A stretch of 64,000 bases of DNA from an uncultured Bryobacteraceae bacterium (GTDB taxonomy: Bacteria > Acidobacteriota > Terriglobia > Bryobacterales > Bryobacteraceae): NCBI GenBank assembly GCA_937924525.1, contig CALDSU010000004.1, positions 62,001 to 126,000 on the forward strand, written 5' to 3'. Under the pieces are notes generated by a model that ran no database searches, was not told where the DNA came from, and saw only the letters and a list, made by a program, of their open reading frames with translations. The translations under genes were made by a program, and so were the position numbers. Positions 4,818-53,746 of this stretch are shown piece by piece; position 1 is the first letter of the stretch, and every line of letters starts with the position of its first letter.

Positions 4818-6488
4818 ATGAAACTCCAGAGCTACACGATCACCCAGGGCCGGGATCGCGCTCCCGCGCGCTCGTATCTCAAAGCGATTGGCTATACCGA
4901 CGAAGATCTGAAGAAGCCGATTATCGGGATCGCCAACACCTGGATCGGCACCATGCCGTGCAACTTTCTGCTCCGGGACCTGGCGCAGGACGTAGCCCAG
5001 GGCATCCGGGAGGCGGGCGGAACTCCCATGGAGTTCAACACCATCGCCATCAGCGACGGCATCACGATGGGCACCGAGGGCATGAAGACGTCGCTGGTGA
5101 GCCGCGAAGTAATCGCCGATTCGATCGAGCTGGTGACGCGGGGCCATATGTTCGACGGCGTGGTCGCCCTGGTCGCTTGCGACAAGACCATCCCGGGCGC
5201 GGCGATGGCCTTGCTGCGGATGAACATCCCCGGTGTGATCCTGTACGGCGGGTCGATCCTGCCCGGCAGATATCGCGACCGGGACATCACCATTCAGGAC
5301 GTATTCGAAGCGGTCGGCGCCTGCGCGGCGGGCAAGATCACCGAGCAGGAACTGCGGGAGATCGAGGACGCCGCCTGCCCGGGCGCCGGCGCGTGCGGCG
5401 GGCAGTTCACCGCGAACACGATGGCCACCGTGATGGAGTTTATCGGGCTATCGCCATTGGGCACGGCGGCGTCGCCGCAGGTGGATCCGCTCAAGAAAGA
5501 TGCCGCCCGGTATTGCGGCCGGGTGATTCTGAACGCAGTCCGGAACAACCTGCGCCCGCGCGACATCTGCACCCGCCAGGCGTTTGAGAACGCGATCGCC
5601 TGCGTCGCCGGCACCGGGGGATCGACCAACGCGGTGCTGCATCTGCTGGCGATGGCGCGCGAGGGGGGCGTCGAACTCAAGATTGACGACTTCCAGGCCA
5701 TCAGCAATCGTACGCCCATCTATGTCGATCTCAAGCCCGGCGGCAAATACGTGGCCCTGGATGTGCACCAGGCGGGCGGCATCCCCGTCATCGTCAAACG
5801 CCTGATCGACGGCGGTTACGTGGACGGGAAACAACTCACGGTGACCGGGCGCACGCTCGGGCAGGAAGCAGCGCAGGCCAACGAGACGCCAGGCCAGCAG
5901 GTGATCCACCCGCTGGACCAGCCGCTCAAGCCGTCGGGCGGGCTCGCCATCCTGCGGGGCAACCTCGCGCCCGAAGGCTGCGTGATTAAACTCTCCGGCC
6001 ACAACCGGAAGAAGCACACCGGTCCCGCGCGCGTCTTTGAGCGGGAAGAGGACGCCATGGCCGCCGTCACCGCGGGCCAGATCCACGCCGGGGATGTGGT
6101 GGTGATCCGCTACGAGGGACCCAAGGGCGGGCCAGGCATGCGCGAAATGCTGGGCGTGACCGGCGCGATTGTCGGCAGAGGTTTGGGGGATAGCGTGGCG
6201 CTGGTCACCGACGGACGATTCAGCGGCGCGACGCACGGTTTCATGGTTGCGCACGTGGCCCCGGAGGCGGTGGTGGGCGGGCCCATCGCCGCGTTGCAGG
6301 AGGGCGACCCGGTAACCATTGACGTAGAGGCGGGCGAAATGAATATGGAAGTCGCGCCGGAGGTGATTGCCGAGCGCCTCCGCGCGTGGACGCCGCCGCC
6401 GCCCCGCTACCGCAGCGGAGTGATGGCCAAGTACGTCAAGCTGGTCGGCTCGGCGTCGGAGGGCGCGATTACGTCCCAGGTGTTTTAG
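4818..6488 (+). CDS. ilvD: Dihydroxy-acid dehydratase
   Basis: IlvD dehydrates 2,3-dihydroxy-isovalerate and the isoleucine analogue to the 2-keto acids, the third step of valine/isoleucine synthesis, using an Fe-S cluster. The 556-residue length is normal. Both family signatures are present: CDKTIPGAAMA (Cys121) and ALVTDGRFSGATHG. Candidate cluster ligands are Cys48, Cys121 and Cys193 (in CPGAGACGG), and Asp80 in ISDGITMG is the usual metal ligand. It heads a three-gene operon: proC starts on the base after its stop codon. Confidence 0.96.
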   Translation: MKLQSYTITQGRDRAPARSYLKAIGYTDEDLKKPIIGIANTWIGTMPCNFLLRDLAQDVAQGIREAGGTPMEFNTIAISDGITMGTEGMKTSLVSREVIADSIELVTRGHMFDGVVALVACDKTIPGAAMALLRMNIPGVILYGGSILPGRYRDRDITIQDVFEAVGACAAGKITEQELREIEDAACPGAGACGGQFTANTMATVMEFIGLSPLGTAASPQVDPLKKDAARYCGRVILNAVRNNLRPRDICTRQAFENAIACVAGTGGSTNAVLHLLAMAREGGVELKIDDFQAISNRTPIYVDLKPGGKYVALDVHQAGGIPVIVKRLIDGGYVDGKQLTVTGRTLGQEAAQANETPGQQVIHPLDQPLKPSGGLAILRGNLAPEGCVIKLSGHNRKKHTGPARVFEREEDAMAAVTAGQIHAGDVVVIRYEGPKGGPGMREMLGVTGAIVGRGLGDSVALVTDGRFSGATHGFMVAHVAPEAVVGGPIAALQEGDPVTIDVEAGEMNMEVAPEVIAERLRAWTPPPPRYRSGVMAKYVKLVGSASEGAITSQVF

Positions 6489-7322
6489 ATGGACCAGCGC
6501 ATCGCCGTTTTGGGCGCGGGAAACATGGGCGCCGCCCTCATCGGCGGCATGTTGAAGGGCGGCGTGGCGGCCCCCGGACAGGTGGTCGCCACGGTCCGCT
6601 CCGAAGAGCGCGCCCGCGCGGTCTCCGAGAAGTTCGGCATCCTGACCCTGGCCGGCGAGAACCGCCGCGCCGTGGAAAACGCCGACGTGGTGATTCTCAG
6701 CGTCAAGCCGGGTACGCTTCCCAAGGTGCTGGCCGAGGTCCGCGAGGCGCTGCATGATCGCCAGGTGCTGGTGTCGCTGGCCGCCGCAGTGCCGATCGCG
6801 CTGATCGAGCAAGTCGCCGGCAAACACCTGCCCATCTTCCGCGCCATGCCGAATATCCCGGTGGTGGTGGAAGAAGGCGCCACGGCGATCGCCTGCAATC
6901 CCCGCTGCTCGGTGGAACACCGCCAGATGGTGCGGAGCATCTTCGAGGCCGTCGGGGTGGCGGTATTCGTCGACGAAGAGTTGATGCACGCGGTCACGGC
7001 GCTGTCCGGCAGCGGACCGGCCTATGTGTATATGGTGATCGAAGCGATGATCGCGGGTGGGTTGAAAATGGGCCTGTCCCGGGAGATCGCCACGCGCCTG
7101 GCCGAGCAGACCGTGCTGGGCGCCGCCAAACTGGTGCGGGAAACCGAACTGCACCCCGCGGTCCTGCGCGACCAGGTGATCACGCCGGGAGGCGTCACCA
7201 TCTCCGCCATTCACGAACTGGAACGCCACGGCTTGCGCGCGATGCTGATCTCCGCCATTGAAACCGCCACGCGTCATTCCGAAGACCGCATGCGCGCCCT
7301 GCTCGAAAAGAACCGGACATGA
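6489..7322 (+). CDS. proC: Pyrroline-5-carboxylate reductase
   Basis: ProC reduces 1-pyrroline-5-carboxylate to proline with NAD(P)H in the cytoplasm. The 277-residue protein has the N-terminal Rossmann motif VLGAGNMGAALIGGM, the middle NIPVVVEEGATAI segment, and the C-terminal signature running from LSGSGPAYVYMV through LAEQTVLGAAKL to PGGVTISAIHELE. Its ATG directly follows the ilvD TAG and its stop overlaps the ymdB start by 4 nt, so all three genes are probably co-translated. Confidence 0.96.
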   Translation: MDQRIAVLGAGNMGAALIGGMLKGGVAAPGQVVATVRSEERARAVSEKFGILTLAGENRRAVENADVVILSVKPGTLPKVLAEVREALHDRQVLVSLAAAVPIALIEQVAGKHLPIFRAMPNIPVVVEEGATAIACNPRCSVEHRQMVRSIFEAVGVAVFVDEELMHAVTALSGSGPAYVYMVIEAMIAGGLKMGLSREIATRLAEQTVLGAAKLVRETELHPAVLRDQVITPGGVTISAIHELERHGLRAMLISAIETATRHSEDRMRALLEKNRT

Positions 7323-50282: not shown

Positions 50283-52793
50283 TCAGACCTTTCCGGCCCG
50301 CAGTTCCTCCCGCACCGACCAGACGTAGCCGCGGACGTTCGGCGAGGGGCTGCGGGCGGCGGCGGCCTCGGCTTCGTGGAGGTAGGCGAGGGAGGCCGCG
50401 AAATCGCACAGCGCGTGCGACACGCGAGCCAGTTCGCTGCAGGTATACGCGAGCCCGGCGGGTAAGCGGTTCTTCTCGTAAAGTTCGCGGGCGCGGGCAT
50501 ACCAGTCGGAAGCGGCCGTGAAGCGGCGCCGGCCGCGTTCGAGGTCGCCCAGTTTCTGGTACACATTGGCCAAACCCATTTGATTCCGCTGCGCTTCGTA
50601 GGCGGCGGCGGCTTCCAGGTACAGCTCGCGCGCCAGGCCGGTCTCGCCTGCGGAGGCTTCGAGGTCGCCGAGGCTCTTCAGCGCGTTGGCTTCGCCGACG
50701 CTCGCCCGCAGTTGCCGGTAGATTTGCAAAGCCTGGCAGATGCGGTCGCGGGCTTCGGCGGCGGCGCCGGTCTGACGGTGCAGTTCGGCCAGGGCGAGCA
50801 GGGCGTTGGCCTGGCCGACGCTGTGGTAGAGGCTGCGGTAGGTTTCCAGGGCTTGGGTAAACAGACGGCGCGCGCCCTCCTGGTCGCCGCGACGCCGGGC
50901 GGCCTCTCCCAGGCCAAGGGAAATGCTAGCCAGCCTGCGGGGACTGTTGGCAAGGGTGGCGGCGGCCAGGGCCTCTTCATACTCGCGCGCCGCGGCCTCG
51001 AGATCGCCGCGGCGGAGCGCCAGTTCCGCCAATCCCTCGCGCGCCGCGGCCGCGCCGTCCCGCTCGCCGCGTTCGATGAACAGGTCGAGCGCCTCGCGGT
51101 AGCACAGTTCGGCTTCGGCAGGGCTTTGGCTGCGGCCGATCCGGGCGAGCCCCAACAGGGTCCGGGCGCGTTCGGCGGCGTGGCCGTTGCCGGGCAGCAT
51201 GTCCAGGCAGCGGCGATACTGGCGCGCGGCATCCTCGAATCGCCCGTGACGCCGTTGCAGGTCTCCGAGGGCGCGCAAGCAAGCCGCCAGCCGGCCGGTT
51301 TCCCGTTCCAGTTCGAAGATGCCGGCGGCGCGGCGGAACTCGGTTTCGGCCCGCTCGGGGTCGGAGGCGCTGTCCAGGGTGGCCAGCTTTTCGCAAACCA
51401 AGGCGGTCCCGAGGCGGTCGGAGTCCGCCTCGTAAATGGCGAGCGCTCCCTGGTAATGCGCGCGCGCCGCGTCGCCGCGCGGCAGGGCCCGTTCGGCATC
51501 TCCCAGCGCCACCAGCAGGCGGGCGCGCCGGATCGGCGGCAGGGTCTCGCCCGCCAGGGTGAAGGCTTCGCTCAGGCAGCGCCAGGCTTCTTCCGCCCGG
51601 TCCTGCGCCAGTTCAAAGCGGCCGAGGTCCTCGAGGAGCGAGGCTAGGCGGTCCGGCGCGGCCAGAGTCCGGAGCAGGGCAAGCGCCTGCTGAAAGTAAG
51701 CCCGGGCGTCCGCCGCGTGTCCGGCGCGCGCCTCCAGACCCGCCAATTGTTGCAAGGTGCGGGCGAGGCGATCGCTGTCCCGCTGCGCCATGCACTGCGG
51801 AATGCGGGCGAGCAACCGCGCTTCCGCCTCCCGCGGGGCCAGCCATTCGCCGTCCACTTCGACGCAGCCGGAGGCTTCGTCGGCAGTCGCCCAAGCCGGC
51901 GCGGCCGAGGCGATCCGGCGGGCCAGTTCCGCATAGGCGCGCCCCAAGGGCGTGGGGTGCGTTTCGTCTTCCACGGCCGCGGCGAGTGCTTCGCCAAAGC
52001 CATAGCGAGGCTGATGCGGCAGGGCGCAGGCGTTGAAATAGGCGTGCAGGTGACACGCGGACAACCCAAAGAGCTCGCGGAACACCGCTTCCCATCGCTC
52101 CTGGTAGCCGGCGGGATCGGGTCCGAAGCGCCACCGGACGGCGAGGGCCGTCTCCGCGCCGTCTCCGCGGGAGGGAACCGGCAACACCACGAAGGGGCGA
52201 GTTGGTTCCTCCCCGTCACGGTAGCCGTGCGCCAGGCGCGCAACCTCGATCGTTCCGTCCAGGCTCGCCCCAGCGGGCGTGAACAGCATGACCAACTGAT
52301 CCGGCAGCATCATGGCGCACATGCCGCTCATTTCGTTGACGCCGCTTGGAGAATCGATCAGCACGTAGCGGTAACGACCTCGCCACCACGCCGCCAGTTT
52401 CTGGATCAAACCGGGCTGGCGCTCGTCCAGGGAGCGCCATGCAAGGCCGGCCACCCGCGCGGCATAGGATTCGTCGAAGCGGCCGGCAGGCAGGAGGCGG
52501 AGGTTATCCCAGCGAGTCTGCTGCACGAAGGGGGCGGGGTCGGTGTCCGGGTCCGCCGCCAGCGATTCGAACAGGTCGATCAGACCCGGCGCCTCGCCGG
52601 CGCCGGTCTCCGGGAAGTAGCGGTGCAAGGCGGGCGCTTCCAGGTTCCAGTCGATCATCAGCACCGCGCCTTGCCGCGCCAGCAGCGTCGCGACGTTGGC
52701 CAGCGCCATAGTGCGTCCGGTCCCGCCGGTGTACGAGTAAAACGTGAGGATTCGCCCTTCGGCCAATTGCGTCTCTCCCGGTTTGCCACCCAT
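50283..52793 (-). CDS. ParA/MinD-like ATPase domain fused to TPR repeats, with degenerate P-loop
   Basis: 836 residues, no signal sequence. The N-terminal 300 residues are a deviant-Walker-A (SIMIBI) ATPase of the type seen in TPR-fused FxsT/KGGVGR-like proteins: ILTFYSYTGGTGRTMALANVA, VLMIDWNLEAPALHRYF, and YVLIDSPSGVNEMSG with Asp147. The usual signature lysine is Thr22, the P-loop lysine is Arg27, and the Asp-x-Asp motif reads Asp48-Trp-Asn50. The rest (about 330-830) is more than ten TPR units (e.g. ARAYFQQALALLRTL, ARRLFTQALETYRSL). It may be an ATP-binding scaffold or non-hydrolysing switch. It is divergent from actA across 293 bp; the ATG at 52793 is the best start. Confidence 0.8.
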   Translation of the reverse strand: MGGKPGETQLAEGRILTFYSYTGGTGRTMALANVATLLARQGAVLMIDWNLEAPALHRYFPETGAGEAPGLIDLFESLAADPDTDPAPFVQQTRWDNLRLLPAGRFDESYAARVAGLAWRSLDERQPGLIQKLAAWWRGRYRYVLIDSPSGVNEMSGMCAMMLPDQLVMLFTPAGASLDGTIEVARLAHGYRDGEEPTRPFVVLPVPSRGDGAETALAVRWRFGPDPAGYQERWEAVFRELFGLSACHLHAYFNACALPHQPRYGFGEALAAAVEDETHPTPLGRAYAELARRIASAAPAWATADEASGCVEVDGEWLAPREAEARLLARIPQCMAQRDSDRLARTLQQLAGLEARAGHAADARAYFQQALALLRTLAAPDRLASLLEDLGRFELAQDRAEEAWRCLSEAFTLAGETLPPIRRARLLVALGDAERALPRGDAARAHYQGALAIYEADSDRLGTALVCEKLATLDSASDPERAETEFRRAAGIFELERETGRLAACLRALGDLQRRHGRFEDAARQYRRCLDMLPGNGHAAERARTLLGLARIGRSQSPAEAELCYREALDLFIERGERDGAAAAREGLAELALRRGDLEAAAREYEEALAAATLANSPRRLASISLGLGEAARRRGDQEGARRLFTQALETYRSLYHSVGQANALLALAELHRQTGAAAEARDRICQALQIYRQLRASVGEANALKSLGDLEASAGETGLARELYLEAAAAYEAQRNQMGLANVYQKLGDLERGRRRFTAASDWYARARELYEKNRLPAGLAYTCSELARVSHALCDFAASLAYLHEAEAAAARSPSPNVRGYVWSVREELRAGKV

Positions 52794-52989
52794 TGTAGGG
52801 CAGCAGGGCGCCCTGACCGTAGAGGGAATCCTCCTAGTCGCCCGTGGGAAAGTGCTGGCCGGGAAGTTGTTTTTTCAACGTTTTGCGGCCTCTGCCCCGG
52901 GACGCGCGGATTCTTGCATCTTCCCCCCGCAGGTGTGGCATCATCCATAACGGACGAACAGGACTTGTTTCCTCCCCTATTGACGTGTT

Positions 52990-53086: not shown

Positions 53087-53746
53087 ATGCCGCAGATATT
53101 TCACCGCAGCGCGAATATCTATTCCAAGGCGAGCATCGTCGGGGGAGTGTTGTTCGCCGGTTTGGCGTTAACGTTGATATTGACCATCAGCCGGTCCTCT
53201 TACGCTACCCAACAAAACGTCAACCGCGACCAGCCTGTCCCCTTCAGCCACGCCCACCACGTCGGCGGCATGGGGCTCGACTGCCGGTATTGCCACAATT
53301 CCGTGGAGATCTCCAGCAGCGCGAATGTCCCGCCGACCAAGACGTGCATGAACTGTCATTCCATGGTCTGGAACGAGAGCCCGACGCTGGAGCCGGTACG
53401 GGCCAGCTTCCGCACCAACGAATCGATTGCGTGGACGCGGGTCCACGATTTGCCAGACTACGTTTATTTCAACCACAGCATCCATGTCAACAAAGGCGTG
53501 GGTTGCCAGACCTGTCATGGCCAGGTCGACCGGATGGCGCTGATGGCGCAGCATTCCCCATTGACGATGGAGTGGTGCCTGGATTGCCACCGCCAGCCGG
53601 AGCGCTATGTCCGCAAGCGGGAAGATGTCTTCCGCATGGACTATGTGCCGCCATCCAACCAGCTCGAATTGGGGAAGCAGTTAGTCGCGGAGTACAAAAT
53701 CGCCAAGACCGAGAACCTGACCAGTTGTTCCACCTGCCACCGGTAG
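53087..53746 (+). CDS. actA: Alternative complex III pentahaem cytochrome c subunit
   Basis: 219 residues: N-terminal TM anchor (about 17-38), then a periplasmic domain with five CxxCH haem sites: CRYCH, CMNCH, CQTCH, CLDCH and CSTCH. Further histidines (SHAHH, HDLPDY, NHSIH, QHSPL) supply distal ligands. It matches ActA of the quinol:cytochrome c oxidoreductase alternative complex III, where it passes electrons from the iron-sulfur subunit towards ActE and the oxidase. First gene of the operon. Confidence 0.93.
   Translation: MPQIFHRSANIYSKASIVGGVLFAGLALTLILTISRSSYATQQNVNRDQPVPFSHAHHVGGMGLDCRYCHNSVEISSSANVPPTKTCMNCHSMVWNESPTLEPVRASFRTNESIAWTRVHDLPDYVYFNHSIHVNKGVGCQTCHGQVDRMALMAQHSPLTMEWCLDCHRQPERYVRKREDVFRMDYVPPSNQLELGKQLVAEYKIAKTENLTSCSTCHR

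Follow-up and report, generated by a model that had tools for sequence, protein, structure and literature searches.

ATPases of the MinD/ParA type with a deviant Walker A motif are recognised by two lysines, as in KGGxxGK[ST]. In E. coli MinD the signature lysine touches the ATP of the partner subunit, and the D40A mutant carries out no ATP hydrolysis (PMC6803595); the D57N mutant of Get3 binds and traps ATP without hydrolysing it (PMC12506534). McdA (SGGQGKT) is without the signature lysine and yet is a strong, fast ATPase (PMC6328274; its motif is also given in the motif table of PMC9178275), and BcsQ, in whose motif RGGVGTT both lysines are missing (PMC9178275), docks on cellulose synthase as an ATP-bound dimer (PMC11470070), so the absence of the first lysine is not conclusive by itself. 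MinD/ParA-like domains also occur in the VMAP and FxSxx conflict systems, where they are predicted to be inactive (Kaur et al. 2020, PMC7159879).

The NF047398 family (“KGGVGR-motif variant AAA ATPase”) has arginine in place of the P-loop lysine, together with the first lysine of KGG and the second aspartate of DWD. KGGVGR-variant ATPases are widespread, often carry fused immune-type domains and have been little studied; a literature search for KGGVGR found no paper. The protein described here is an uncommon variant of this known, poorly understood family. It is encoded in the window, i.e. the whole stretch of 64,000 nucleotides that was analysed, from the genome (G000) of an uncultured Bryobacteraceae bacterium, a soil acidobacterium.

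Architecture and family membership

The gene and its two parts are as follows:

50283..52793, minus strand: CDS of 836 amino acids, MinD/ParA-like domain plus TPR solenoid (open reading frame, translation, profile matches, model)
51891..52763, minus strand: MinD/ParA-fold domain, residues 11-301 (NF047398, 111 bits; AlphaFold pLDDT 89.6; VIA-align Z 25 against MinD structures 1g3q and 3q9l)
50298..51836, minus strand: TPR solenoid of about 12 helical hairpins, residues 320-832 (Pfam TPR_12, model)

The open reading frame, strand and residue numbers of the first-pass annotation are exact, and its description of an ATPase-TPR fusion is borne out by Pfam TPR_12, which matches seven stretches of the C-terminal part (120 bits), and by the whole-protein model, in which the helices between residues 320 and 832 form a TPR solenoid. 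Pfam finds nothing else in the protein except weak AAA/CbiA matches. The NF047398 profile covers residues 14-186 with 111.4 bits (115.4 in the genome-wide search), above the curated cut-off of 90 bits. AlphaFold gives residues 11-301 a confident MinD/ParA fold (pLDDT 89.6), and VIA-align superimposes the domain on 1g3q and 3q9l with Z 25.1 and an rmsd of 2.4-2.6 over 233-239 residues, which places it in the SIMIBI fold. The whole-protein model has a pLDDT of 83 and a pTM of 0.53, the latter making the relative placement of the ATPase and TPR domains uncertain. The TPR arm is probably the partner-binding part. The sole usable start of the frame is the ATG at 52793, but it is tentative, as the nearest AGGAGG, at 52830-52835, is about 37 bases upstream. 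Residues 14-172 (52278-52754) are hit with 48 bits by PDC-M28B, a PADLOC model for a phage-defence candidate.

With NF047398 the window protein shares a score above the cut-off, R27 in place of the P-loop lysine, GG.GR, D48, the general layout and the N-terminal place of the domain in a multidomain protein. It differs in having neither the eponymous first lysine (T22) nor the second aspartate of DWD (N50), and its TGGTGRT also departs from the two-lysine motif of MinD/ParA. As lysine 22 is present in 76 of 80 relatives, the protein is classified as a degenerate offshoot rather than a typical member.

Motif residues, ortholog and distribution

Three motifs of the ATPase domain deviate from the family:

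52710..52733, minus strand: degenerate deviant Walker A YTGGTGRT, residues 21-28, with T22 for the signature lysine and the family-normal R27 (alignment of relatives, codons)
52644..52652, minus strand: degenerate DxD motif D48-W49-N50, with N50 for an otherwise invariant aspartate (alignment of relatives, codons, MinD alignment)
52341..52355, minus strand: switch-II-like DSPSG, residues 147-151, DSRTG in the family, with P149 for an arginine present in 79 of 80 (alignment of relatives)

The readings T22 (ACC), R27 (CGC) and D48-W-N50 (N50, AAC) made earlier are all correct by translation and codons. Among 80 aligned named relatives, all taken from GTDB genomes, every one has R27, D48 and D50, and 76 have K22. 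The statement that both P-loop lysines are lost is thus right for position 22, whereas R27 is the family norm, and the true anomalies of the protein are K22T and D50N. The scan patterns permitted K, T or S at position 22 and D, N or S at position 50, so variants of the window type were not hidden by the scan. Five more changes are found at near-invariant positions (G55A, R149P, D154E, T160A and Q176A); in total 7 of 39 positions of at least 90% conservation are lost, compared with 0-3 in the other aligned relatives and 9 in the Massilia proteins. R149P is not clearly harmful, since true MinD has DSPAG or DCPAG here, close to the resulting DSPSG. G23, G24, G26, R27 and D48 are kept. N50 aligns with the position of D40 in E. 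coli MinD, which we take to be that of D57 in Get3.

The nearest relative (L039) comes from another genus of the same bacterial family (genome G003) and has the same ATPase-TPR architecture, with 51% identity over the ATPase domain and 43% over the full length including the same TPR part. Its motifs are YSGGTGRS and DWS, with DSR retained. The same two positions are therefore lost in both proteins, to different residues (T or S at 22, N or S at 50), contrary to the earlier view that relatives keep the first lysine. The two form a clade with support of 100/96 in a tree built with columns 22 and 50 masked. The ortholog is intact over 850 aa and shares the conserved C-terminal segment GLAYTCSELARV. 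These are the only two known orthologs of the degenerate clade, and they are too divergent for dN/dS. As identity over the domain at least matches that over the whole protein, the ATPase domain is not simply decaying.

Within the same bacterial family, the next relatives retain both K and DWD, and their C-terminal parts are of other kinds. L043 is likewise TPR-rich, but none of these relatives aligns with the window protein past the ATPase domain. G003 encodes a second KGGVGR protein, in which the lysine is kept. No other NF047398 protein above the cut-off is found in G000, so that genome offers no catalytic partner from the same protein family. Of 237 family genomes, two (G000 and G003) were seen to encode the degenerate protein at full length. 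The pattern [ST]GGxGR[ST]M was found only in the window among 396 phylum genomes; as G003 lies outside this sample, the search shows only that the variant is uncommon. The single-sequence scan of genome contigs gave no matches, whereas the alignment-based scan did find relatives.

Hydrolysis and a putative scaffold role

By analogy with MinD D40A and Get3 D57N, ATP turnover has likely been lost in the window protein. The same DxD position is changed as in these mutants, from Asp to Asn as in Get3; the mutants are laboratory constructs with both lysines, whereas the change here is natural. With McdA the clade shares a small hydroxyl residue in place of the signature lysine (serine in L039, threonine in the window), but McdA keeps the P-loop lysine and is highly active. 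Nucleotide may possibly still bind through D48 and what is left of the P-loop (GGTGRT), which is our guess, and weak binding or catalysis is possible given that R27, D48 and the three P-loop glycines are kept. The first-pass view of a nucleotide-binding or inactive scaffold rather than a hydrolysing switch is accordingly retained for the likely loss of hydrolysis, through the equivalence of D50 with MinD D40, and not for its other grounds: R27 is universal in the family, and McdA shows that too much weight was put on the missing first lysine.

The best explanation, to which we assign a probability of about 0.6, is that the protein is a hydrolysis-deficient MinD-like pseudo-ATPase scaffold with a partner-binding TPR arm. 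A KGGVGR-variant MinD/ParA-like lineage has lost K22 and D50 in one clade, represented by two genera; the degenerate domain would serve as a structural module, possibly holding nucleotide, without hydrolysis; and the long C-terminal TPR arm would bind a putative partner. This is supported by homology, the predicted fold, the fused TPRs, the loss of both residues in two genera, the long open frames and continued conservation; the scaffold role itself and the identity of the partner are guessed. Drift fits as well as specialisation, since the window protein has more losses than its ortholog. The best analogy for a structural role is BcsQ, which shares a SIMIBI fold without both lysines (VIA-align Z 22) and, as a dimer with bound ATP, works as part of an assembly (PMC11470070). 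BcsQ differs in being without a TPR fusion, in lying in another operon and in an identity of about 15%; no BcsR partner or cellulose operon was found among the flanking genes examined. More doubtful is a natural counterpart of the Get3 D57N trap, in which nucleotide would be bound and never hydrolysed, so that the domain would stay dimeric and carry a pair of TPR arms.

Rather than having lost activity in this clade, the whole KGGVGR-variant family may already be non-catalytic, with K22T and D50N as further drift in a domain that, as in its relatives, would only bind. Arginine replaces the catalytic lysine in all relatives, the relatives are fused to TIR, NACHT, NB-ARC, nSTAND1-WD40, FtsZ or TPR, and inactive domains are predicted in VMAP and FxSxx systems (PMC7159879); the near-absolute conservation of K22, D48 and D50 in the relatives is hard to explain if the family is dead, and we consider this a minor possibility. 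An active ATPase or nucleotide switch, in which R27 takes the P-loop lysine role as in the family, the signature lysine is substituted for by some other basic residue and water is activated by D48 or a different acidic residue, seems distinctly unlikely: the strong ATPase McdA and the conserved R27 and D48 speak for it, but McdA retains its P-loop lysine, and D50 is invariant in the 80 relatives and its MinD equivalent is required for hydrolysis.

A decaying gene or assembly artefact would account for the seven lost near-invariant positions and the patchy distribution, but is highly improbable. The 836-aa frame is intact, as is the ortholog from the other genus, which is without the same two residues and conserves the C-terminal segment. 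Nor can a single sequencing error yield T22, as at least two base changes separate lysine from ACC; the read-level error proposed earlier as a refutation is therefore rejected.

A pseudo-ATPase scaffold would add a case of a MinD-type domain apparently turned scaffold, and a clade in which exactly K22 and D50 are lost lets nature itself provide the contrast with which to ask if ATP hydrolysis is required in this family. It is reasonable to guess at a function in stress or conflict signalling, since the family is often fused to TIR, NACHT, NB-ARC and nSTAND1 and inactive MinD/ParA-like domains are predicted in conflict systems (PMC7159879); the protein would have in common with these a MinD/ParA-like domain of predicted inactivity that is linked to further modules. 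It does not have the fused or adjacent partners of FxSxx-COOH and VMAP systems: no TIR, AP-ATPase, NB-ARC, peptidase, radical-SAM, MoxR or vWA partner is present in the window protein or the flanking genes examined.

Genomic context and lysine losses elsewhere in the family

As annotated earlier, the gene lies divergently beside act genes (cytochrome c, Fe-S protein and NrfD), which begin at 53087, 293 bases away. Other neighbours in the window are MeaB, PNP_UDP_1, glycosyltransferase 9 and 3-keto-disaccharide hydrolase. A scan of the divergent region for promoters and terminators found none. The suggested link to respiration does not hold up: NrfD/ActC occurs in 136 of 150 family genomes, against two of 237 for the degenerate protein, and in G003 the two are on different contigs, so the adjacency is best read as incidental. 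The neighbourhood of the G003 ortholog has nothing in common with the window, and the relatives' loci share with the window only the gene itself, although a few unrelated ORFs of the window have distant matches there. Viral and plasmid sequences searched held no close copy. The Rhizobium plasmid matches to the ATPase family (H7, H8 and H10) also overlap or adjoin genes annotated as MqsA-family antitoxin.

K22 has changed at least four times on the tree across the sampled family: in the window pair, in Massilia, in Pseudoduganella aquatica (to Q) and in one Bryobacterales protein (to R). The Massilia relatives (L094, L104 and L114, at about 6001-6957 in each) have DSAPVRS as P-loop with DWDLEAPG intact, and make up what their motifs indicate is an independent pseudo-ATPase lineage within the same family. 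In L097 and L027 the signature lysine alone is changed: Pseudoduganella aquatica has QGGAGRS, and a genome from the bacterial family to which the window belongs has RGGAGRS.
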